Positions 23,806-41,017 of a stretch of DNA of 64,000 nt are shown piece by piece. This stretch comes from Volvariella volvacea V23. Its lineage: Eukaryota; Basidiomycota; Agaricomycetes; Agaricales; Pluteaceae. Numbering within the stretch: the first letter of the stretch is position 1; each line of letters opens with the position of its first letter. The translations under genes were made by a program, and so were the position numbers. Below the pieces are notes generated by a model. That model saw only the letters and a program-made list of their open reading frames with translations. It was not told where the DNA came from and searched no databases. The stretch spans positions 895,392 to 959,391 of the forward strand of contig KB722741.1 of the NCBI GenBank assembly GCA_000349905.1. The letters are read 5' to 3'.

Positions 23806-25395
23806 ATGAGCTATCACCCCCACCCAGTCGCCCACGCTCCTCATTCCTATTCTCATTCATTCCCAACCCTACATCCCGTTCAAGCTCCAGGTCATTCCCA
23901 AACCCGGCACGTTTCGACACACGGTGCTTCCCATGGATCCAAGGAGAAGCGAAGCAGGCGGGGAGGACGGACTGTCGGGTCACAGAATTTCGGGATGGAG
24001 GAAATAAAAGAGTTGCTGAGGGTCGTGCGGGCGGTTCTCCCCATCGGCCCGAGTGGATGGTTGAAGGTCGGGAATGACTACGAGGCGTGGGTGAGGACGC
24101 AGTCGAATGTCAGTTCACGGGATGTGAAAACGTTGAAGGACAAGTATAACCGAGTATGCCACACCTTGCCGTGCGTTGAATGTATCGAACTCATTGCGGT
24201 GCTGTAGCTTGTAAGGGAAGCGAGAGAAAAGCCAGAGGCAGCTGGACCTCGAAGTGAAATTCTAAAGAATGCGCTGGGTATTGATGAGCTTATTGAGGCT
24301 AAGCTGGCCTCGCCTGATGCCCGCGACGCTCTCAACGAGACGCCAACACCGGCTCAAGAAGCTGTTGGCCCAGAAGACGCCGAACCTGACACCGAGGAAG
24401 ATCCCATTGAAGAGCGTCAAGAAAGGGGAGTCGTTCCTGGCGTCACAGGTGGGCAACCAATAACGTCGAGGTCGCCAAGTAAGTATTCTACACGCTTGTG
24501 GAATTGCTAATTAAGCGACGCAAAACTAGTTGTCGACGATGCTCGAAGTTCGGCGTCAGCTTCACCGCCACCACGGCTGCCACCGCTTCAACATATGGCC
24601 CATCCTCCACCTCTTTCGTCAGGCCCACAGGCCTTCCCACCATTTATGACTTACTATAACCCAAGTCCCTACTGGGACCCCCATACTGCACAACCACCCT
24701 ACACACCCAGCTTCAACCAAGGCCACATACCACCTCCACCTCCAACCACAGCACCCCCGCCTCCACCCCCACCACACTTCTCAACAGGCTTCTCATCAGC
24801 CCAAATCACCACCCTCCAGAACGAGAACCGCGAGCTACGCGCGCGGATAGACCACCTCACCGCCTCCCTGATGCACGAGATGCAGCGGGTGCACGCGGTC
24901 GAGCGCGCAAAGGACAAGATGGAGTCCAAGGCGACGATGTACCGGACGTTGTATGAGTCTCAGCTTGCGACGCGGTGTCGTGGGTGTTGTCATTGCCACC
25001 ATTATAGCTACGACCGCGATCAGGACCAGGACCAGGAGAGGGACCAGGACCACGGCCATGGACATGGACATGGACACGGGCATAGGCATAGGCACAAATA
25101 CGACCGGGGTCATGACCACGATCGCGATCGTGGACATCGACGGTGTACATCGCGGGCTAGTTCAGCAGAGCCGGCTCCTAAGCGGCAAAAGTCTCGCCAC
25201 AGCCCTGGTCATGGGCTGCGGAGCGAGGAAGGTGAAGGAGAGGGTGAACACGTGCAGGCGAAAGAGCAAGAGCGAGAGCAAGGCCAGAGCGGTGCTCCTC
25301 CAAGTCAGGAAGGACAGCGGCATAGTGAGGGGCATAGTGGAGATTCCGCGGATGTGGATGGTCCGTCCTCGAATACGTTGTTGGAGTATCCTTGA
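23806..25395 (+). CDS. Myb-like (DUF6818-type) coiled-coil protein
   Basis: The predicted protein has 494 aa in three exons (23806-24153, 24208-24478, 24530-25395) with matching phases. Residues about 60-130 (SQNFGMEEIKELLRVVRAVL, GPSGWLKVGNDYEAWV, SSRDVKTLKDKYNRLVREAR) resemble the Myb/SANT-like domain that Pfam, from memory, calls DUF6818 and that is abundant in Agaricomycetes. Then come an acidic/Pro-rich region and a coiled coil (ITTLQNENRELRARIDHLTA, HEMQRVHAVERAKDKMESKA). After it are a Cys/His cluster (CRGCCHCHH), an Asp/Gln then Gly-His repeat (DQDQDQ, HGHGHGHGHGHRHRHK), an Arg/Asp-His stretch, a possible basic nuclear signal (PAPKRQKSRH) and the end LLEYP. It may be a DNA-binding or chromatin protein; function unknown. 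A diverged copy of its coiled-coil-to-end part is fused to the HSP70 gene directly downstream. Confidence 0.8.
25010..25140 (+). repeat. Coding microsatellite, Asp/Gln and Gly-His tract
   Basis: Degenerate hexanucleotide repeats (GACCAG-type, then GGACAT-type) inside the last exon of the Myb-like gene encode the Asp-Gln and Gly-His runs. Length variation between strains is likely. The downstream chimera has a shorter version at about 28380-28480. Confidence 0.7.
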
Positions 25396-25871
25396 TGTTT
25401 GTCCACCTCATGGACTAGAGATTGTATATTATAATTAGTAATTCATGTTATGAGTCCCATTTTAACTTGATAGGCGAAAACAGGCGCGCAATGTGGGCAT
25501 AAATAGGCTGATCTATTTTCCAAAGCATCACTGCGTCAACAACAAAGTCAGTACACGGCCTTGAACACCCAATGAGAGCAGTTTAGATATATGTATTTAA
25601 CAAAAACCATACTATTCGAGATATAGGGTGCACGCGGTGCAGCCATCTACGCTGCGGTCCTGAGCGCTAGTTTGAGCGCCAGCGTATTGGTTCCGCGCGC
25701 TTGTTCCCGCGCTAGCGCCCACCGATTAGTCATCACTCCGCCCAGGCATGAAGCACGCTGACCCGGTCACGCACTGACCGCGCCAGACAGGTCAGACCGT
25801 CAGCGCGCCAATTCGCTAAAAACACCACTGCTCCCGTCACATCCCCCGAAAGCCCCATTCAAAACGACCTC
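25396..25871. other. Upstream of HSP70 chimera
   Basis: About 480 bp after the Myb-like gene. The last 200 bp are GC-rich with several GCGC/AGCGC motifs. I found no clear array of alternating nGAAn heat-shock elements. Confidence 0.4.
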
Positions 25872-28629
25872 ATGCCCCCCGCAAAGCCTATCGGAATTGG
25901 CATCGACCTCGGCACGACCTACTCGTGAGTCTCACACATGCAACCGAAATATATTGTCCAACTGAGCTGATCTTCCTCTAGATGCGTCGGCGCCTGGCGC
26001 AACGGCCGTGTGGAGATCATCCCCAACGATCACGGCAATCGAACGATCGCCCTNNNNNNNNNNNNNNNNNNNNNNNNNNNNNNNNNNNNNNNNNNNNNNN
26101 NNNNNNNNNNNNNNNNNNNNNNNNNNNNNNNNNNNNNNNNNNNNNNNNNNNNNTGCCGCGACAAAGCCTATTTCTCGGTCCGGACCCTCAAGAACATGTG
26201 GTGGGTATTTTTTTGCTTTTTGTTGTTTTTCATGGCTCACCCGGCGCTTTTAGGCTATACGGCGTCAAGCGCCTTGTTGGGCGACAATTCGACGATGTGG
26301 AGGTGCAGGCTGATATTAGACGCCTCCCGTTCCGGGTCTTTGATAAGGCCGGCAAGCCATACATCCACGTGGAGTACGGCGGCGCAACTAAAGAACTCGT
26401 GAGCAATCCCCTGCATTATAGCTGGATAGAGAACAAACACTCATTGCGAGCCCATAGTCTCCGGAAGAGGTCTCGTCCATGATTCTGTCAAAAATGAAGG
26501 AGAACGCCGAGGCACATCTCGGTGGTGCAGTTGACTGTGCCGTCATATCGGTCCCTGCACATTTCAACCAGTCTCAACGCCAGGCAACTATGAAAGCTGG
26601 AGAGATGGCTGGTTTTCGCGAGCTCCGTGTTATAAACGAGCCTAGCGCCGCTGCTATTGCATATAGTCTTGAGAAAGGGGTGAGAGATGAACGAAACGTT
26701 CTCATTTTTGATCTTGGTGGTGGTACTTTGGATGTATCCCTTGTCACCATTGAGGACGGTATTATTGAGGTCAAGGCTACTGCCGGTGACGGACACCTTG
26801 GCGGTGTGGATTTCGATAACCGCCTTGTCGACCACTTTATTCGTGAATTCTATTCCAAGCACCAGAAAGGTATGTCACTCCTTTTAGTATAACTCAATCA
26901 CGCTCAACTCTATTTAGATTTATCTTCCAGCCCCCGTGCCGTCCGTCGCCTCCGTACGGTATGCGAGCGCGCTAAGCGCGCGCTATCTTCAGCCACTCAA
27001 GCGTCCCTCGAAATCGACACACTGCTTGACTCTATCGATTTCTACACCTCCCTCACTCGAGAAAAGTTTGAAGAACTATGTTCGGACCTCTTCAATCGAG
27101 CGCTTGAACCGGTGAAAAAGGTCATCCACGACTCGCGCGTCAAAAAGGACGACGTATGTAAAGTCATATTCGTCGGCGGTGCAACTCGGATGCCTCGCAT
27201 CGCCACGCTTGTATCCAGCTTCTTTGGATATAATCCCGATGACAGCGTGCCGCTGGCCAATCAGAGCATTAATCCAGATGAAGCCGTTGCATATGGTACC
27301 GCGATACAGGCTGCTATGCTTTGTGGCGACGACTCCGAGAAGATACAAGATCTGCTCTTACTCGATGTTACCCCCTTGTCGCTTGGTATCACGACGGAGG
27401 GCACCTCAACTACGATAATTAAGCATAATTCTGGTATTCCCACAAAGAGGTCTGAAAGCGTCTATACTTCGGACAACCTCATAAATATCTTTGAGGGCGA
27501 GCATTTGCACCATGGGAGTAATCACTCGTTTGGGGAGATAAATCTTTCCGGCCTCCCTCCTGGTCTTCGTACTATCGAAGTTACGTTCGACATTGACGTC
27601 AATGGCGTCGTGGCCATTTCTGCCTGCGACAAAGCTACTGGCGAGACAGGCGGTATTACGGTCACGATGAATAAAGATCATCTGACTAGAGATGATGAGA
27701 ATGGGCGCGTAAACCAAGAGTCAGAGGGTGAAAATGGTACGTTGAGTATTTTATTAGCATATATGCGATTCCGTTAACAACATTCTGGTGACAAGATGGG
27801 TCTGCTACTCTTTGCAGCATATCTGAAGACGACTCTGAATCCCACGAACCCCGCGACACTCCTACCGACACCAGGCTGACGAGTCAACCAGGTGCGTATA
27901 AATGCCGAAAAGCTGTGGATTTCTGTTTATGTGACTGCTCCAGAGCTCGACAGTTCAGTAGAGGCGCTGAAAAGAGAGTATGATTCCAATCCAAAGGGCC
28001 TAGAGGGTGTTGCAGGGTAGGTCTCTTGGGCCGAATCTCCTTGAAGGGTATATAATGATGTGCTCCACAGTCCTAGCACGCATAGATCACCTGAGCCAAC
28101 ACCAGTATCAGCCTCAACATCAGCACTAGTACCAGCACCAGCACCAGCAGCGCTGCACCACACCACAGACTCCTCAGCTCAATTCAACGCTCTCCAAAAC
28201 GATATCCGTGAACTCCGAACCCGAGTCGATCATCTCACCAACCACCTCATGCACAGCATGCACCAAGTAAACACCCTCGAACGCGAAAGGGACAAGGCAG
28301 AACTAACAATGTACCGTACGATATACGAGCCCCATCTCGCGATGCGGTGCCACGGCTGCTATCGCTGTCAGCCCCACACCCACGACCAAGATCACTACCA
28401 AGATCACTATCAAGACCAGGACCAGGACCACGGCCATGGCCGCGGGTACAAGCACAAGTACGACCGCGGGCGCGAGCACGATCGTGAGCTTGGACGGCGG
28501 CGCAGTGCGTCTCGGCCCAGCTCTGCGGAACCGGCGACTAAGCGGCAGAAGTCGCATTATGATTACGGCTGTGGGCAGAGTAGAGATCCTGTGGAGCAGG
28601 ACTCGAATATGCTGCTCGAGTACCCGTGA
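25872..28629 (+). CDS. HSP70 chimera with coiled-coil/His-Asp tail
   Basis: HSP70 ATPase and substrate-binding beta domain joined to a foreign C-terminus. HSP70 signatures: [33 protein letters not shown] and [21 protein letters not shown], then [13 protein letters not shown] and [19 protein letters not shown]. The helical lid is nearly absent; only [18 protein letters not shown], recalling the last lid helix, remains. The protein then continues [30 protein letters not shown], a [17 protein letters not shown] run, PATKRQKSH and LLEYP, a diverged copy of the end of the gene upstream. Exons seen: 25872-25924, 25982 to the gap, about 26252-26398, 26458-26869, 26918-27736, 27796-27891, 27944-28016 and 28071-28629; all phases fit. 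Around 26154-26251 the frame right after the gap does not fit the HSP70 family cleanly (an [13 protein letters not shown] reading), so a lesion or poor sequence there is possible. Confidence 0.8.
26054..26153. other. Assembly gap (100 N)
   Basis: Exactly 100 N, a placeholder of unknown true length, inside the second exon of the HSP70 chimera. It removes part of the first ATPase subdomain. Confidence 0.98.
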
Positions 28630-29396
28630 TTATTTGTTGTTTCTTTTTTTCGACCGTACAGGTTGTATATTATAATCTGTAGTTTATATTAGAATTCCGT
28701 ATTTGTGATGGGCGCTCATGCGTTGATCTGCGATACGGGGGTTTTAGTCGAGCAAAATCGATAGACTACGGAATAGGTGACGGTGGGCAGGAAGGGAGAA
28801 TGAGTGGCAGATGAGGGTGCAAGCATTCAAGGCATTTCTATCGTCCCTAAGGTGTTCAGAAATGGTTTCAAGGAGTCCAGGTAACCAAATGGGTTCGTGT
28901 GACATGGGCTGAAGCAAATCTGACGAAGCGCGCCCTGATGTGGTGCAGACAACTCGTTACGAACGTTTGAGCACCAACCAAATGTCCCATCATTTGCTGA
29001 TTGAGACTATTAACAGGCAGAAAGCTCCGGGCTCTTTTGACACTATAGCTACGTTGTAAATACATATGATCTAGTAAAGTATCTCGACAAAATTTACTGA
29101 GACGCACAGAGACTCTGCAGGTAACATGGTAGTCCAGATGGTATCAAGATCAAGACAGGGTAATAGTAATGGTCCTCGAGGGAAGGTATAAATATACCAG
29201 ACACGAGAAGAGAGACGCGTCAACGAACGACAAGGGTAGGGTGGTATGCATGAGAGTCCGTTTGATGTGTCGTAAGAGTTCGTTAAAATGGAGAGCAGGG
29301 AAAGGAGAAAAGGATCGGAAAGGATAGTACGATTCGAGGAGAAACGAGAAGGGAGAGATTGTCCGAGGATAAGTCCGGTATGAAACCAAAGTCTCT
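28630..29396. other. Shared 3' flank, no gene supported
   Basis: About 770 bp between the convergent HSP70 chimera and GMC oxidoreductase. The reading frames present look like chance frames. Confidence 0.45.
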
Positions 29397-32143
<2,747 letters not shown>

Positions 32144-33004
32144 CTAAAGGGAGCTAGTTAGGGAGCGGCGAAGGTTGAACTTGAGGAGAGGGTGATTTCG
32201 TTAAAATCGAGAAAGCACGGAAAATTTTGACGTTCGCCCACAAAGGCACCCCAGTTTTTATAACTCTTTTGCATTACGAATGATTTCATAGCGGAACTAG
32301 ATGAGCAAGCGCATGAGCACAAAAACAGAACCCAAGAAGAAAGTCCCGGCTCTTGGGATGACAACGAGGAGCAGTCAAGCCGCGGCACATTTGGCATGCC
32401 ATTGCAGTAAGGAGAAAGCCGGGTGCACAAGCGGATGTTCGAGGTTCCAATGCAGGGAGACTTCTGGCCGAGTTCTCGCCCTCATATAGAGCACCGAGAC
32501 TCTTGGCCAGCACCCTATGGTAATAGATGTCGTACCACCGACTTGTAGGGCAGAAAGCGTGGTGCTTGTGACTAGGTGATCAGAATGAATTAGCAATAAA
32601 AGCCACAACACAGCATAGCCTCTTCTGGTTAGTGGACCCTCTCACCATATGCCGGCCGCCGCTGCTTTCGATGTTTTCCATCATCTTCAGGGCTACGAAT
32701 CCCCGAAGTTTTCGTCGAAAGTCGGGTGGCGAGCGAAGTGAAAGACGCGACGATTCCAGTATTCTCAAGGCTGTGCTCCAAGTTGGTCGGGGCCCAACTG
32801 GGCGCTAATCAGGCACCAGGGGAGAGCGCCCCGATAATCTCATATCTAATCATCGTCGAACACGTTCCGTTCATCAACATCAACAATGAATGCCGCCGTG
32901 GCACGCCTCCCAAAAAAATCGGGACACGAATAACGCCTACACAGCATCTATGACTATCGCCCTCTACCTCCCCAGTCCCTCAATCTCGAGCTCTTCAACC
33001 TCAA
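32144..33004. other. Divergent promoter region
   Basis: About 860 bp between the divergent GMC and Chs7-like genes, holding both upstream regions. No gene, RNA or repeat recognised. Confidence 0.45.
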
Positions 33005-34261
33005 ATGGTGGAATTCGGGTACTTCAACTACTTTTGTGAAAATACCCCATCTTATCCGTGGTGCAATCTCTTCTATCGTCAGGTGAGTTTGGCTCCGTTG
33101 TGTTTTGCGTGCTGCATAGGGTGTTTTCGGAAGCTGACGCTGCGCACTCCACGCCGCTTGCCTTGGCAGTTGCAACGCAGGGCTCCTTCACTCTTACTTG
33201 GTGTCTCTGCGGACCCAGACTCTGCACCTGTCGGCATCAACCCGGAATGCGGAATCCCTCGAGCAGGTCACAACAACTCTCCGTCAAATGTCGTCAACAA
33301 CGTTTTTTGCTTCCTATGCACGGTGTGGGTTGGAGTTTTGATGTACAAGGCTGTTCGGCGGAAGATCGCTTTTGGTGAGTCGTTGATGCTGTTCAACGTC
33401 GTGTCCATGCGTCTCATGATGCCATCCGTGACCTTCGCACACACGAAGCCCGGATTGAATTCCGAGTACTCCTAGCGCTGTATGGACTGTCACTACTACT
33501 CCAACTTCTAACAATCGGCTCGTTCTTGAAACAAGGCTCTACCTCGCTAGTAGTAATCACCGCCGTCCACCTTGGGATCCTGTCAACCACGTTCTGGGCC
33601 CTCTTCGCCTTCGCGCTCGTGATCTTCCTGGAAGTTCTACAACTTGAAGAGAGATCGCTCAATTTTCCGTTCATTGCGCTCAGTTCAGGATTCCTTGGGT
33701 TTTTCGTGTTCGCTGCGTCCGGATATGTCGGGTTAGACATCGGATTTGGGTTTTCGGAGCAAAATCAACCAGGCACGCCCTGGGAGAAGTTGAGAAGTGT
33801 ACCCTTGTTTATTTTCGCGGTTTTATGGCCTCTCACGTACGTCAATCACCTCTCGCGGCTGCTAAGCGACGTAATTGACTTGATTTCTCTTGGCACAAGT
33901 GCTATTGCCTTTTACCTTGCCGTGGTGGGATATCTTTTGATCTGGCGTCTTCGGGACTTCGCCTCGCTTCGATACCTTGTTTTGTCTTTCACCCTTTTCG
34001 CGGTTGCTCAAGTGGATTATTTCATTTTGAGTGGTCCCATTTGTGATGTAAGGCCTTCTTCCCACCCCATGTGTGCTCTCGTGTTGCTGACCACCTCTTT
34101 AGATCACTTCCGCGCGACTGGATGGGTCATTTATCGCGACATTCCTCAACACAGCGAGCTTGACTACTTTGTACCTCTCTTGGAAGGTTATGACAGAAGG
34201 TACGCTGACCTCACCATCCTTCATTGCCCGAGACTCCTGATACTTTCGCCCCTCAGATTAA
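33005..34261 (+). CDS. Chs7-like chitin synthase export chaperone
   Basis: Chs7 is an ER membrane protein needed for exit of chitin synthase Chs3 from the ER. The predicted protein has 327 aa. It starts MVEFGYFNYFCENTPSYPWCNLF, close to the family start (F-x-FIC-x-A-LPLCSL), then GINPECGIPRAGHNN and at least six hydrophobic helices (FCFLCTVWVGVLMY, LLALYGLSLLLQLLTIGSF, TTFWALFAFALVIFLEVLQL, SLVALIFFAV-like segments). QVDYFILSGPICD-ITSARLDGSFIATFLNTASL is the conserved C-terminal part. Exons: 33005-33082, 33170-33374, 33449-34047, 34103-34199 and a 5-nt end exon 34257-34261, giving KVMTED and a stop. If the last intron is not spliced, translation would instead run 14 codons on to a stop at 34240. 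Basidiomycetes often have several Chs7 paralogs, and this may be a diverged one. Confidence 0.8.
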
Positions 34262-34784
34262 AGGCAAACCTCGCCATTCTCCCCTTACGATCTTAACGAC
34301 CGCCATATGTTGATATTAATTTATTGCATCGTACGCTTTGGATGCTCGTGATATTCTTGTTCCACCCAGCTGCTAACTTTCTGTACATTCGGACACTCGC
34401 ATTAGACCTTCGATCATCCCGTCACAGATGTGTATGACTCTGGATTGTAACTGGTTTGAGTTTCCTGTACATCTGCATTTTCTACCATTTGTAACAATGT
34501 ATACAGTTCTTCACGACACTGCTATCGGAATTCTGATTGAATTTAAGGACTTGCACCTATGTTCCCTTTACACGACGCAGCCCTGCAGGCGGGTACACAG
34601 GAGAAATTGCTAATGAGCTTTGGTGTATTCAAATAGCCTGACCGACTATTTACAGCAGTAGCTGCTAGTACCCCTTGCACGTGCAAGCCTGTCAGTGGCG
34701 GAAGAGCCGAAAGCGCCTCACCGTCAAAGACCCTTTTTATCCCTCTGTTTCTTTGTACCACGACCACTTGTCCTACGCTTGTAA
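34262..34784. other. Intergenic, no gene supported
   Basis: About 520 bp between the Chs7-like gene and the first F-box paralog. One CCTGCAGG octamer occurs near 34583. Nothing else noted. Confidence 0.45.
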
Positions 34785-36398
34785 ATGCTTTTATCCTTGT
34801 CTGACGCCAACTCATTTCGATCCGTTGACGCTCTCGCCAAATTGCGGCTATATAATGCCTCCAAACCGATTTCCAAACTTCCTGCAGAGCTCATCATCGA
34901 GATCCTGACCATCCTCGTCGACGAAGCGCAAGGTAACGTGGCGGGTACTCACGACAGAGTTACCGGATGGATTCCCGCCACTCAATTCTGTGCACAGTGG
35001 AGAAAGGTGGCGCTCAGGAGTCGAGGACTGTGGACACGGGTCTGGATGAAGAAATTAGACTTATTTAAGGTCTTCTTGGAGCGATCGGTGGATCAACCAT
35101 TGCACATTGACACTTGGCGTGGTCGAGTAAATGATACCGAGTACGATGAAATGTTTAGGCACCTGGTCGCCAACATGTTCCGAATCCGAACGCTATACCT
35201 TTGGCAGGACCTCACCGGACACAGGCTTTCGTGGCTACAAGGCCGGCGCGCTCGGCAACTAGAATCCCTAAGGCTTCATCGTATTGGCCTTGTCTTAGCC
35301 CCGAACAATAGGCGCTTTGCTACTAGTAGTATCGCTCCTGATCCCAGCATCATGCCAAAGCTTCGCCGACTGGAGGTCATGTCCTGCGTGCAAGAAGACT
35401 GGACACCCCTCCTCCCTTCCCATCTCCCGGCAGTCACACACCTCACCATTGAATGCTTTACCCAAGCCGACCAACTTGATCTGCTTAAGCGCTGCTACAA
35501 TGTCCGTCGCCTATCGATAAGACTGATCAATAATAGGCCCGACTCTGGTTTCCAACCTCCACGCATGATGCTCAGACATCTTACGCACTTGTATTTGGAC
35601 AGCTTGTCATGGGCGACGCTTAAACAAGCAACTATCCCATCAATACGGCACGTTCGTCTTACCCCCCGTTTTGGCTTTGCGACGCGCGAATCGGTGTTTG
35701 AAGCTTGCCGTGCTATTAAAGAAATAATGGGGCGCATCGTAAATCAGGTCCCTATCTCACGACTCGATCATTTTAATCTGGTCTGGGGTTTCCATGGTAT
35801 ACTATTTGTAAAGGCGGTCACCAGGATGGGACAACAGCGGATATTCTTGTATGATAATCTTCCCACCTATTCAATGAGCGATCTGAGTGCTACAGCCCTC
35901 GATGCGCTCCAAGACTCGACTTTTGGACTTGGGAGTATCATCCGAGCAATGGATCTTGGTCACATTAAACAGCGGGATATAGCGGCTCTTCGTCGGATTA
36001 CTAGTACAAGGGCCGCTCAAGGATGTGCAATCTACCTTCTCCGTAACTACGACGCGTTCATTGGCTTTCTTTCATTCGACAGCCGACCAACGAACTCTCC
36101 TGATCTCCCTCATCAATCACCCACCGGAGTTTGTGGGTGCGACGAATGCCACGAAATGCGTATCCGAGCTTATCCCAACCTGAAGGATTTAGGCTTGTGT
36201 GTAGAGGAGCGGTATTTCAGGGATCACAGTTCATCAAATATAGATATATTCTTGGGTTGGCTCGAAGAACGACAGAGAAGGGGACGGGAACTGAAGGTAT
36301 TGAGGCTGAGATTCGGTGGAGGAGGTCGAGAGGGGGCAGAGTCATTGCAGACCCGGATCAGTCCTTTTGTTACGAAAGTAGTTTTAATGGAAGAGTGA
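34785..36398 (+). CDS. F-box/LRR-like protein, cluster copy 1
   Basis: The predicted protein has 537 aa and no intron. The F-box region reads KPISKLPAELIIEILTILVDEA, followed by the family block TGWIPATQFCAQWRKVALRSRGLWTRVWM and FLERSVDQPLHIDTW. The middle part has repeated Leu-rich strands with MPKLRRLEVMSCVQEDWTPLLPSHLP and THLTIECF. The C-terminal part has a CGCDECHEM motif and ends IDIFLGWLEERQRRGRELKVL, then a last beta-like segment. This is the F-box architecture of Agaricomycete expansions. It is one of three intact paralogs (with 36942-38633 and 43914-45653), all on the forward strand. ATG 34785 is the first in frame. Confidence 0.75.
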   Translation: MLLSLSDANSFRSVDALAKLRLYNASKPISKLPAELIIEILTILVDEAQGNVAGTHDRVTGWIPATQFCAQWRKVALRSRGLWTRVWMKKLDLFKVFLERSVDQPLHIDTWRGRVNDTEYDEMFRHLVANMFRIRTLYLWQDLTGHRLSWLQGRRARQLESLRLHRIGLVLAPNNRRFATSSIAPDPSIMPKLRRLEVMSCVQEDWTPLLPSHLPAVTHLTIECFTQADQLDLLKRCYNVRRLSIRLINNRPDSGFQPPRMMLRHLTHLYLDSLSWATLKQATIPSIRHVRLTPRFGFATRESVFEACRAIKEIMGRIVNQVPISRLDHFNLVWGFHGILFVKAVTRMGQQRIFLYDNLPTYSMSDLSATALDALQDSTFGLGSIIRAMDLGHIKQRDIAALRRITSTRAAQGCAIYLLRNYDAFIGFLSFDSRPTNSPDLPHQSPTGVCGCDECHEMRIRAYPNLKDLGLCVEERYFRDHSSSNIDIFLGWLEERQRRGRELKVLRLRFGGGGREGAESLQTRISPFVTKVVLMEE

Positions 36399-36941
36399 GG
36401 GCGAGCATGATGGGCTGTAGCTCTTCTCCCTTCCCCGCTTATCTTGAGCAAACTTTGTGCGTGCGCGCTGTGGATACATTCTATATATCTTGGTGTATTT
36501 ATCATAAATGGAGTGAATTCCTTAAGGATGGAAATGGTGTTGATATTAGCTAGACTAGGGTTCGATGGACAGACGCGTCTGCACACACATACTGTGGATC
36601 AAAGGCATGAGTGGCCAATGGAGAGGAAAGCCACGGCTTGTGTATGCTTGTATGTTGAGGAGTCTCTTTCCTTTAGCGCGCTGTAACCCGCTGTTGTGTC
36701 CTTCGCGTGGCTTCACGTATTGACACCGCCATTGCCCTCGAACGAAATCCTTCACCTAATAACGCCATGCATTGTCAAGCGCAGCGGGGATGCGCCGTCC
36801 GAGAAGGTTAGGGAGTGAGGACATGATGTGGCATCGTAAACCGCAAGCTCACGTGCCATCGTCAGAGCGCCTACACCTGCAGCAAGCTGCAGCACCCTCC
36901 TTACATCCGCTCACCCACGATCCCTGAACACATGCACCCAA
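36399..36941. other. Intergenic between F-box copies
   Basis: About 540 bp with no coding-like frame. It holds the upstream region of F-box copy 2. Confidence 0.45.
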
Positions 36942-38633
36942 ATGTTCTCATCTCTGTTCAAAGCCAACTCGATTCGGCTCAGAGAATTGGTGGATTCAGG
37001 CGCAGTCAGTAAAGCAGATAGGAATGTCGCCGCGTTCGCGACGGCACTAGCCCAGTTACGTCGACACAAAAACTCCCTCCAACCTCTTTCCAAACTCCCT
37101 GCTGAGCTGATTACCGAAATTATAACCATACTCATCGAAAAAGACATTGATGCCGTAGCGGATGCTCTGGATGGGGCCTCCACTCACCACCACAACGCCA
37201 AATTCTTCACGTGGCTCCCTGCCACTCAATTTTGCACGCACTGGAGAGATGTGGCACTTAATAACAAAGGGCTATGGACGCACATCTGGATGACAAACGT
37301 CGAGCTGTTCAAAGCCTTCCTGGAGCGCTCAGGCGATATGCCACTGCATATCGACACCTGGCGTAATCGGGCTAGCGCCTCGGCGTACGACCAAATGTCC
37401 AGCCTATTGGCCGAAAACATGCATCGAGTCCGCTCGCTACGCATCTGGAGAAAATTCGCGGGACACAAAATTTCACGCATACACGGTCGACCTGCCCCCA
37501 AACTGGAGGTGCTTGAGCTCCGTGGCCTTAGATCCCGTCGTGTACGACGAAGCAATAGAGAAATTGAGTTTCGGGCTCCCGATCTCGGTGTGATGCCGAA
37601 GCTTCGTCGATTGGAAATCCAATCGTGCTTGCAGAAAGACTGGGCTCCCCTTCTCCCTTCGAGTCTCCCGACGGTTACCCACCTCTCGATTAAGTGTTTT
37701 TACCGTAATGACCAGCTAGACTTGCTTCGGCGTTGTAAACGCGTTCGTCATCTATCAATGGAGATAATAGGGACGTCGCCGAATATCTCAGAGCAAAATT
37801 CTACCTCGATAGGGCTATCCCATATTACGCACTTGAATATAGACACTCCATCTTGGGACGTGCTCAAGAAGGAAAGTCTCCACTCCATCCAGCAAGCGCA
37901 CATCCTCATCTTTCCCAACTCTCAAAGTTTCCGTGTACAAGATGCCTATCAGGCCTTTCAGGGATTGCTCGAGCACCGAAGGGCCCCTCCTCAAGGATCA
38001 CAGGAACAACATGATCGTTTATCTCTCACGTGGACCCGTGAAGATAGGTTCATCCTGAAGTTGAGAGACGCTACGGGCAAGGATGTCGTAACGTTAGACA
38101 CTCCCATTAAGGGTCCTCACATTCAACAGTTATTCATTGAGGGACTCATCTGGTTCACAAACAAAAGCAACGTCGACATCGAGGAGATAGATATTGGGTA
38201 CATTACAAAACATCGAGTACGATCAGATATCCACCGCCTGTTCTCCGTATTAGCTTACGCGACGCGCAAGACCGTTATCCACCTCCGAACTATGCACGTA
38301 TTTATATCCTTCCTCGGTAGCTGGACGAAGCGTGCACCCACCAGTCGACAAGGACATCGGGATTGCAGTTGCGAGGAATGCGAAGACGTACCACACATAG
38401 GCTACCTCGGCCTGGAGATGCTTATTTTGGATATTGGAGAGCTCTTCTTTCACGAGGACAACGAGGAGATCTTGGAGATATTTTTGGATTGGCTGAAGGA
38501 ACGACAATTAAGGGGATGGGAACTGAAGACATTGAAATTGAGGTATATTGGTAAATTCAAGAAGAAGGCGAGGTTGCTGCAGGCGCAGGCTAGCACTTTT
38601 GTTACTGAAGTGCAGTTGTGGAGGCAGGTATGA
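36942..38633 (+). CDS. F-box/LRR-like protein, cluster copy 2
   Basis: The predicted protein has 563 aa and no intron; it is a tandem paralog of the gene at 34785. The F-box region is SLQPLSKLPAELITEIITIL, followed by FTWLPATQFCTHWRDVALNNKGLWTHIWM and FLERSGDMPLHIDTWR. The middle has MPKLRRLEIQSCLQKDWAPL and THLSIKCF. The C-terminal part carries a Cys/His motif (HRDCSCEECED) like the CGCDECHEM of copy 1, then LEILDWLKERQLRGWELKTLK-like sequence and the end TEVQLWRQV. The family is intronless and well conserved in the F-box-proximal half but diverged in the Leu-rich half, as expected if the target-binding part is under changing selection (inference). Confidence 0.75.
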   Translation: MFSSLFKANSIRLRELVDSGAVSKADRNVAAFATALAQLRRHKNSLQPLSKLPAELITEIITILIEKDIDAVADALDGASTHHHNAKFFTWLPATQFCTHWRDVALNNKGLWTHIWMTNVELFKAFLERSGDMPLHIDTWRNRASASAYDQMSSLLAENMHRVRSLRIWRKFAGHKISRIHGRPAPKLEVLELRGLRSRRVRRSNREIEFRAPDLGVMPKLRRLEIQSCLQKDWAPLLPSSLPTVTHLSIKCFYRNDQLDLLRRCKRVRHLSMEIIGTSPNISEQNSTSIGLSHITHLNIDTPSWDVLKKESLHSIQQAHILIFPNSQSFRVQDAYQAFQGLLEHRRAPPQGSQEQHDRLSLTWTREDRFILKLRDATGKDVVTLDTPIKGPHIQQLFIEGLIWFTNKSNVDIEEIDIGYITKHRVRSDIHRLFSVLAYATRKTVIHLRTMHVFISFLGSWTKRAPTSRQGHRDCSCEECEDVPHIGYLGLEMLILDIGELFFHEDNEEILEIFLDWLKERQLRGWELKTLKLRYIGKFKKKARLLQAQASTFVTEVQLWRQV

Positions 38634-39572
38634 CGGACGTCAAATTTCCTCATTGATGTTTAGGAGAATTGGAGTACATACCAAAGTGTAAACAATTCGC
38701 CCCTGATCATTGAATGGTCGGGATCTTGATGCTGGTACTCTGTCTTGTCGTGTAGGATTGCATGAGAGCAGACCTAAATACGTAAATGTTCAGGGAATTT
38801 CGTCCTGATTTTATGGTCTAGCCATTCAATTTGTAAGTGTTCAACGATTCGCGAGGTTGCTGTCCCTAGGTTAAGTCCCTATAGCAGGTTCGCAACAGTA
38901 AGGGAATTACACCAACCAAGGACAGCGATTTCACTGGACCATTTTTTGCATTGTGCGAGGTGAATTCTACCTGTAGATTTTCAAGAGCAGGTAACAGGTA
39001 GACCGCGTACCGTAGTTTTCTTTGGTGCCGATATCCAAGGGATAATAAGAAGATGGTACAAACAACCAATATAAGTCATAAAGGAGATGGCAATGATACA
39101 GATGCAAGAGACGCGAGGAAAAAAGTAGTCGCACACTTTGACAAAGACATGACAAACTATCAAAGCACAAGACTTCGACTATGTTGGAACGATGTAGAAG
39201 AGGTAGAGTTGAGCGATACGAGGTAATACCCCAATATATACTTGTAATGAGAGAGTAGCGTAAGTATTTACAGCATCTAGCTGCTATAACAAGTAGTCCA
39301 TGATCGTATAGGAATCAAATCCCCTAACATAGCAAGAACGACAGCAAGAATATAACCGATTGCTGTAAGTATCATAGACGCAATAGCAGACTTGAGAGTT
39401 AGCTAGATATGGGGGAATATAGAGAGCCAGCAAATATTATCATATGCAGAGGGGGTAAATCACGAAGACTAGTGAATGCAATGACTAGAAGAGCAAGACG
39501 AACCAAAGCGTATAATACCCCAACAGCGCATAAAATAAAGACTCTATGATCCAGTCTGGTCCTGAAAAGCGT
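38634..39572. other. Intergenic, no gene supported
   Basis: About 940 bp between F-box copy 2 and the reverse-strand membrane-family copy A. It is AT-richer than the left part of the window. It may contain eroded 3' sequence of copy A, but I could not recognise the missing C-terminal codons there. Confidence 0.45.
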
Positions 39573-41017
39573 TTAGAAAGCGGCAAGAAAAATCATGAAA
39601 GAAATAGAAACCAAGATGATAGATGAAATCTTCCAGAGCAAGCGCTCTTTGTCAGTTGGAAACTCGAACACAGATGCCCACCCTGCGCAATGGATCGCTC
39701 CGAGCAATAAAGCCGCAATTGCGGGTCCTAGAAGTTCCCTTAGGGTTCTTTTGCGCCTGGTGCGCCCTCTCTCTCCTTCAGGTAGATCATTGAACCACGT
39801 CGTATAGTATGTGTTAACACTCTGGGCAGTGCACGAGCGACTTCCAGGGCCACGGGCAACTTTCTCTTTAACGCCATAAGGATCGATTCCCATGAAGCTC
39901 TGCAGTATATGTACCAAGGATTGTGAAATCGTCCGGCGGCGTCTTTGTACCGGTCCTGATGCTAAAGGAATTTGGGGTGGGAAATTGACCTCTAGGACTG
40001 GGACCGAATATAAACTAGGGTGGTGGGGAAAAATCTGGTGTAATTGGGTAAACAGATATTCGATCATAAAGTAGACATCACTGACCGCCGACAATACTGA
40101 CCGGCGGGAACCTTGGAAAGTAAGGCAACGACCTCTCGTGCTTTCCCCTGATTTTCTCGAAGTCCGGTCCCGGTAATCTATTGCCACGGAGGTCAAGATA
40201 AATGGGAAGGCGGACATCGCGTGGTTTATGCATCCAGAGGCACCATGCAATGATGTTTAGGATGGCAAACGTGAATGCGATTAGCTCGATCATGGTGACG
40301 TTCAGTCCTGCGATGAACCGAACCAGGCACTGTACGACGAACCAACAAAGCTGGCTCAAAGCAATCATCGTCACCACCCAATCCCCTTGACCTCTGTATT
40401 CAATCTCTTGCATTGAGACATCGAGCCTGAAATCCGTCGCAAGGAACCAAGTATGCCCATCACCTCTCCGAAGTCCTGCAGGCTCATTGAGAAGAAATTT
40501 GAATGCTTCATAGGTGAGCACCTCGTATCTGTCTGCCTGTGTTTGTACCATAAATCCGCCCATTTGCAAGAAATAGGCATGTCTCATTGACCACTGAGGT
40601 ATCTTTTCGCTGTAACCTGAAGCATGGCTATGAATAAAGGTCACTTAGTCTGGTAGAAACCACATACGGGACTGCTTAAATTCTTTATAAATTCTCTTTG
40701 CTGCATTTCTTTGCATCGCCGCCCAGTATCGTCATATCTGGTGCAAAAACTGCGAAGAATGTCATCCACAATCGCTCTCGAAGTACTTCTCTCTTAGTAG
40801 CAGCTGGATTTGGGACATTGGGATGCAGGGCGGAATGCGTGCATGCGATAATGGTGACGACGGAACTCCAGATAATGTTGAATAACTGTCGCCTATACTG
40901 CTGGTCGACTTCGAGAGCTTGAGCCAGTATATTAGACGCCTGGGGTCGATATAAAGTTGTGGGTAGAGCCAGAACTAATGGGAGGCATAGAGAGATGAAC
41001 AAGAAACTAAGAGCCAT
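39573..41017 (-). pseudogene. Membrane-family copy A, frameshifted and truncated
   Basis: First and only reverse-strand copy of the unrecognised membrane family. It starts MALSFLFISLCLPLVLALP (signal peptide), then EVDQQYRRQLFNIIWSSVV, HPNVPNPAAT and RERLWMTFFAVFAPDMTIL. Next to this, near 40725, it lacks two bases compared with the other copies (CTGGGCGGC instead of CTGTGGGCGGC), which destroys the frame of exon 1. Exon 2 is open (KIPQWSMRHAYFLQMGGFM, LPIYLDLRGNRLPGPDFEKI). The last exon (NTYYTTWF, GAIHCAGWASVFEFPT, ERLLWKISS) stops at ISFMIFLAAF, about 60-65 residues short of the usual PHI end. Either a pseudogene or, if the 2-nt loss is an assembly error, a C-terminally shortened protein. 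Confidence 0.75.

Follow-up and report, generated by a model that had tools for sequence, protein, structure and literature searches.

The HSP70 gene and its exons

The window (the whole stretch of 64,000 nucleotides of DNA analysed here, from the edible straw mushroom Volvariella volvacea) holds a divergent cytosolic SSA-type HSP70 gene whose last ~175 codons share homology with the 3' end of the gene upstream of it, here called copy A. The deposited protein AX16_004062 (P0001, strain WC 439), which has no gap, carries the same fusion, and the last exon of the fusion gene matches it at 100% over 185 residues. Differences between the window and the deposited WC 439 protein occur at the edges of the assembly gap and at two other positions (residue 2, and a Tyr/His difference in exon 3), so they are not simply the same sequence record. 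No publication was found under the locus tag AX16_004062, and none naming the fusion gene was found in the literature search.

Exon 1 (25872-25924, + strand, as are all exons given here) encodes the phosphate loop GIDLGTTYS, with intron position and phase as in L019, the canonical SSA-type cytosolic HSP70 of the same genome (contig C3:1434400-1437100). Exon 2 was located by spliced translation to the left of an assembly gap (25982-26053) and by the spliced model to its right (26154-26197), where it ends at an unusual donor, GTGGTG (at 26198). The gap that the first-pass annotation placed at 26054 is real and consists of 100 N (26054-26153). Its flanks lose register with the gap-free protein AX16_004062 (~14 codons within 26054-26197), probably because this is a low-quality contig edge. 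Exon 3 (26254-26398) has intron positions as in L019, exon 4 (26458-26869) of the spliced model retains the ATP-site residues E175, D199, T204 and D206, and exon 5 (26918-27736; spliced model and homology) carries the NBD end, the linker DLLLLDV, the substrate-binding beta domain (SBD-beta) and the start of lid helix A. A single frame was maintained across seven exons 3' of the gap. The gene structure is SSA-type: all six L019 introns, the last included, were matched in the fusion gene by position and phase, the second of them in the low-quality sequence next to the gap.

Pfam HSP70 (PF00012) matched model residues 10-517 with E 1.3e-149 (profile 56-544 of 599, NBD and SBD-beta), and the best PDB match covered residues 13-470 with E 5.6e-163, in agreement with the earlier identification of the gene as an HSP70 through the substrate-binding beta domain. 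Identity to L019 was 66.3% over NBD and SBD-beta, with the same linker. L019 has a whole lid, a Gly-rich tail and EEVD, whereas the fusion has neither lid core nor EEVD and ends in a coiled-coil tail. L019 was used as a yardstick and not as a proven parent, because the identity margin is tiny (0.663, vs. 0.661 for the next agaric HSP70) and the tree did not group the two: the fusion adjoined, on a long branch, a group with Suillus sequences (nodes 0.67 and 0.88). The tree took in no plant T1 rows, and the closest identities were agaric HSP70s. The protein branch of the fusion was ~30 times longer than that of L019 (0.607 vs. 0.019). Another divergent HSP70 paralog (L016, G000:C28:281200-284800), by eye like the gene in L015, has an altered interdomain linker region (ACLMF-ITPVALG).

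At 35 of 40 checked NBD positions the fusion has the L019 residue, including D10, T13, K71, E175, D199, T204, D206, E268, K271, R272, R342, D366 and the linker DLLLLDV; these residues presumably have their usual roles at the ATP site. The changes are D152 to Gln, S340 to Ala, E231 to Val, I172 to Val, and Asp to Lys at position 160. Columns were compared across 94 full-length HSP70s (93 of the 120 matches listed, length 620-700, plus L019). In the NBD 205/266 invariant columns were kept vs. 56/115 variable columns; in SBD-beta the values were 45/83 and 19/39 (others), hardly any preference. Pairwise omega against L019 was best near 0.1 for both the NBD (317 codons, 219 residues identical) and the beta domain (113 codons, 64 identical), estimates that are rough since synonymous sites are near saturation (pS 0.74). 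To judge from these comparisons, the ATPase domain looks constrained and the client domain strongly changed or relaxed. The weak preference in SBD-beta, the changes at D152 and S340 and the branch length mean that the fusion gene may be decaying. Atypical Hsp70s of Ascomycota are reported to be fast-evolving (PMC3879978), and eight HSP-related genes of V. volvacea are reported as down-regulated at 4 C (PMC3602538).

The tail and its donor

Copy A, the donor of the tail, lies at 23806-25395 (+), with exons 23806-24153, 24208-24478 and 24530-25395 and a spliced translation of 494 aa. It corresponds to AX16_004071 (P0002; 100% match), the sole match among 7991 scored candidates in a search that requires shared 5-residue words; copy A thus had no relative beyond itself among those candidates. 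The tags AX16_004062 and AX16_004071 are nine apart in WC 439, yet the genes are adjacent in the window, so either the tags are out of order or the gene order differs. The longest contig given for both is 43,444 bases.

No recognised domain was found at the copy A N-terminus. The label 'Myb-like' that had been attached to this gene was not borne out by Pfam, which gave no SANT/Myb family up to E 1 for the spliced protein or 0.1 for the first exon (HMMER filters drop most matches above 0.1). The best Pfam match of the spliced protein was a coiled-coil family (E 0.015), and the first exon had only an unrelated match (0.082). Structure prediction for the N-terminal region (23806-24478) gave short helices at low confidence (block pLDDT 37-65). 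A 97-residue piece of this region matched itself alone in the genome.

The tail (28101-28629, +) ends in a stop codon after LLEYP and was assigned to copy A by genome search, blastn and codon comparison. A search of the V. volvacea genome (35.4 Mb) with the tail returned three matches: itself (E 2.4e-131), copy A (E 6.9e-41, 53% identity) and a third with E 0.205, which leaves copy A as the sole significant relative in that genome. Outside the species no relative was found; among 1395 candidates, again in a search requiring shared 5-residue words, the tail matched itself alone. At the DNA level, the donor segment is the 3' part of the copy A last exon plus 81 nt of 3'UTR (24687-25476, +), and it resembles 28061-28714 in two blastn blocks (28061-28586 and 28573-28714; 64% and 66% identity). 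Homology therefore runs 81 nt (copy A) and 85 nt (fusion) beyond the stop codons, and the 3'UTR carried with the duplication (28630-28714, +) was 72% identical over 61 nt in a separate comparison. The protein identity and the extension of homology into the 3'UTR uphold the earlier proposal that the 3' part of the upstream gene was duplicated at the HSP70 end. The motifs quoted in that proposal are present in both genes and in the same order. The two products have in common the C-terminal helix, CxxCxxC, the His/Asp run, KRQKS and LLEYP; they differ in a ~260-residue N-terminal part of copy A that is missing from the fusion.

A single 60-residue helix was predicted by AlphaFold at 28171-28350 (+; P0001 residues 617-676), with FLILVLLSVL at the heptad a/d positions and a heptad score that was reached by 1 of 2000 shuffles. 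Block pLDDT was 70-77 over residues 621-660 and lower at both ends (whole model: mean pLDDT 59, pTM 0.48, 32 rows). The corresponding helix of copy A (residues 296-355; AlphaFold, single sequence) reached a block pLDDT of up to 96. The description of the tail as helical and coiled-coil-like is supported by a long helix in both predictions and by the heptad score. The helix is followed by CxxCxxC and a His/Asp-rich stretch (28348-28368, +), conserved in copy A, as is the basic patch KRQKSH (28540-28557, +; AEPA-x-KRQKS), which we take to be a possible motif of nuclear-signal type.

The codon comparison of tail and copy A (176 codons) gave a best grid omega of 0.1 (lnL -1174.4, vs. -1189.9 at 0.5 and -1210.9 at 1). 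The tail core (126 codons, 78 residues identical) gave the same omega result, and divergence by codon position was 0.25/0.22/0.56. These values suggest that the tail has been constrained on both branches since the duplication, with dN/dS near 0.1, likewise a rough value so close to synonymous saturation. As constraint on copy A alone predicts an average omega of ~0.5 or more, the fused copy would have been selected as protein for most of the time since duplication. In simulations of neutral evolution, 185-codon tails stayed stop-free in 356, 48, 7 and 1 of 2000 runs at 0.1, 0.25, 0.5 and 1.0 substitutions per site. There is no in-frame ATG in the last exon 5' of 28249, nor in the open frame 27880-28020, and between SSAQ and the ATG at 28249 18/27 residues are identical in copy A.

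The junction and the eroded lid

The closing part of the HSP70 lid is encoded by an exon at 27944-28016 (+). Its product pairs gap-free with LDASQEASKEEYESKQKELESVA of L019 (14/23 identical), its lid-end profile score of 58.8 was reached by none of 20000 resamples, and its DNA score was z 6.5. It is followed by the ancestral last intron of an SSA-type HSP70 (28017-28070, +), with the position and phase (2) of the L019 intron and a score reached by 0/500 resamples, and then by a remnant of the ancestral last exon (SPIMQRLYG region; 28071-28100, +), near the end of which lies the junction. In this remnant 20 of 29 aligned nt match L019 (1/500 resamples reached the score); the 30 nt after 28100 showed no resemblance to the L019 last exon. 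Resamples for the profile score and for the DNA scores of lid, intron and last exon were first-order Markov. Resemblance to L019 covers the first 30 nt of the last exon and is gone in the following 30 nt, which places the changeover from HSP70 to tail near 28100, where the disordered Gly-rich C-terminus should begin. The first-pass annotation had the tail replacing the lid; because the lid end, the last intron and ~30 nt of the last exon survive, the tail replaced the Gly-rich/EEVD C-terminus instead, and the protein ends in LLEYP where an SSA-type HSP70 has EEVD. A reading of 27944-28016 as a remnant of the copy A N-terminal region was dropped by eye, the lid match being much better.

Upstream of this exon the lid core (27737-27945, +) is eroded, so that a complete alpha-helical lid is absent: the core is barely recognisable and only the lid end is kept. 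The DNA of the core compared with L019 gave z 1.4 over 27818-27945 (49/500 resamples) and z 2.2 over 27796-27891 (10/500). Against the 94 HSP70s, 23 of 107 lid columns matched the consensus, and in the AlphaFold model of the fusion the lid remnant is low-confidence. The lid core was lost by erosion, separately from the acquisition of the tail. In-register lid resemblance of the stretch before 27946 had P 0.008-0.12 over eight lengths; with a DNA score of z 0.9 (77/500 resamples), this is only suggestive of former lid coding in the predicted 52-nt intron 27892-27943.

In the deposited model, introns 27737-27795 (with an AAG acceptor) and 27892-27943 surround an exon at 27796-27891. A simpler splice is a single 207-nt intron (27737-27943) from the ancestral donor to a CTCCAG acceptor at 27943, which also leaves the tail in frame; splicing to the acceptor at 27817, which looks ancestral, would run into a stop codon near 27880. 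As a control, GT-AG paths were enumerated (donors 27690-27979, acceptors 27730-27959, introns 40-260 nt), and HSP70 was joined to the tail in frame by 17/107 one-intron and 73/448 two-intron paths (90/555 in total). Phase fit within 27737-27943 is therefore little more than chance. The 'fitting phases' previously reported for the exons leading into the tail hold for the last HSP70 intron, which has phase 2 as in L019; those within 27737-27943 are weak evidence. The attachment of the tail accordingly rests on the conserved last intron and exon and not on the lid-core phases.

Explanations for the locus

On balance we think it probable that the 3' end of copy A was duplicated onto an HSP70, that the lid core eroded separately, and that the gene encodes an ATPase with a coiled-coil tail. 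Judged from the gene structure and the codon comparisons, there is a good case that the fusion is a genuine chimeric gene that is translated, and its predicted product is most likely a real, lid-less HSP70 ATPase with a coiled-coil tail. Against this explanation, the deposited model requires an extra intron and an AAG acceptor, the only one of this kind among the 15 introns of the three gene models (6 in L019, 7 in the fusion, 2 in copy A; counted by eye). The acceptor at 27817 is, for its part, a CAG, and 27737-27817 aligns with the corresponding L019 intron (42/57 nt, z 4.1). Its use would give a truncated HSP70 that ends at the TGA near 27880, just 5' of the open frame 27880-28020, after SBD-beta, with the tail untranslated; lid-less HSP70s are described elsewhere (PMC10687569). 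We regard such a truncation as unlikely, since the tail has an omega near 0.1 and no stop has entered its frame although synonymous sites have come close to saturation. Moreover, the lid end is far better conserved than the lid core, as is expected if the lid end stayed coding after the core was lost. Another account, which seems to us quite unlikely, is that an HSP70-tail protein with intact lid was long made and that the lid broke recently, the deposited introns being an artefact of the gene predictor. A predictor would easily find a path when 90/555 keep the frame, and the AAG acceptor, the very long branch and the slight preference of SBD-beta for invariant sites all fit a recently dead gene. 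However, the sequence on either side of the lid core (SBD end, lid end and tail) is far less eroded than the core itself, so that, measured against the constraint on these flanks, the core was not lost recently, and the window and the deposited protein share the open frame.

The two remaining explanations would detach the tail from the HSP70. That it resembles the end of another gene could mean that a separate gene starts near 28060 and merely abuts the HSP70; we consider this very improbable, and it is contradicted by the lack of an in-frame ATG in the last exon before 28249, by the conserved coding upstream of that ATG, and by the acceptor at 28070 and the following ~30 nt, which belong to the HSP70 gene. 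The gap at 26054 and its poor flanking sequence likewise raise the question of an assembly artefact joining two loci. This is scarcely credible: the gap is ~2 kb from the junction, the WC 439 protein, differing at the gap and at two residues, has the same junction, and a DNA identity of only ~64% to the donor shows that the tail is not a copy of it joined by mistake.

For the chimeric gene that we favour, the starting point would have been copy A closely followed by a divergent SSA-type HSP70. A tandem duplication with breaks in the last exons of copy A and HSP70 would then have fused the copied 3' end and 3'UTR in frame just past the lid. The junction is observed directly; for the mechanism, copy A, HSP70 and tail share a strand and follow each other in this order, only ~475 bp separate the donor from the HSP70 downstream of it, and these facts fit one tandem duplication with breaks in both last exons. 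Such a duplication predicts a second HSP70 downstream, and none was found (protein search of 28630-40000, DNA search of 28600-31000), nor was copied intergenic DNA found downstream of the fusion. The second HSP70 may therefore have been lost, or the fusion may have arisen by deletion between the HSP70 and a second complete copy A. A GMC oxidoreductase gene fragment lies downstream of the fusion (29776-30111, -; Pfam GMC_oxred_C, E 5.6e-13). The lid core, which is plainly eroded, would at some point have stopped coding and then have been removed by splicing or translated into a short acidic linker; the splicing and the order of these events are our reconstruction.

The product would be an ATPase with nucleotide site and linker retained, a substrate domain that evolves fast, no working lid or EEVD, and a coiled coil at its end. 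From its parts, it would bind ATP and probably meet J-proteins. Because lid and EEVD are absent, client binding would be weak, with no handover to Hsp90 or CHIP. The coiled coil would most likely pair with itself or with the homologous helix of the copy A product, and such pairing would link an ATP-dependent HSP70 module to the function of copy A.

Both truncated HSP70s and fusions by duplication are already known kinds; as far as our searches go, an HSP70 ending in the copied end of its neighbour is a new variant. No described HSP70 of this sort was found in the literature searched (titles and abstract openings), which does not prove absence. Ssz1 and STCH are old conserved lineages, and we know of no coiled-coil fusion for either. 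Like the fusion, they are truncated HSP70s, and Ssz1 is described as without lid and as a partner protein rather than a classical foldase (PMC10687569). Ssz1 is also reported to be without ATP hydrolysis, whereas the fusion retains most ATP-site residues. The truncated cytosolic Hsp70s T1 of plants, types II-IV, resemble the fusion in an SSA-like NBD and SBD-beta, a lid that is reduced, absent or atypical, and the lack of EEVD. Those of type IV are extended at the C-terminus, some of them by a sequence with a leucine-rich helix, which is a likeness to the fusion tail. The T1 proteins are reported from green algae and plants only, and the available text on them does not describe the extension as a neighbour-gene copy (PMC10687569).

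A functional new kind of HSP70 would go further: a lid-less, EEVD-less ATPase dimerising through a borrowed coiled coil with its neighbour's product, with the old lid codons now an intron; a single duplication would thereby have made an orphan protein subject to HSP70 control that depends on ATP and J-proteins; we hold this full picture to be doubtful. As the donor lies about half a kilobase upstream, the duplication event is easy to reconstruct and to test. If translated, the fusion is a natural experiment on the separable parts of HSP70, in which lid core and EEVD were lost, the ATPase was kept and a coiled coil stands where the disordered C-terminus began. It indicates that a gene copy can be recast by the 3' exon of a neighbour that brings its 3'UTR along, and it may possibly show coding sequence turning into intron.
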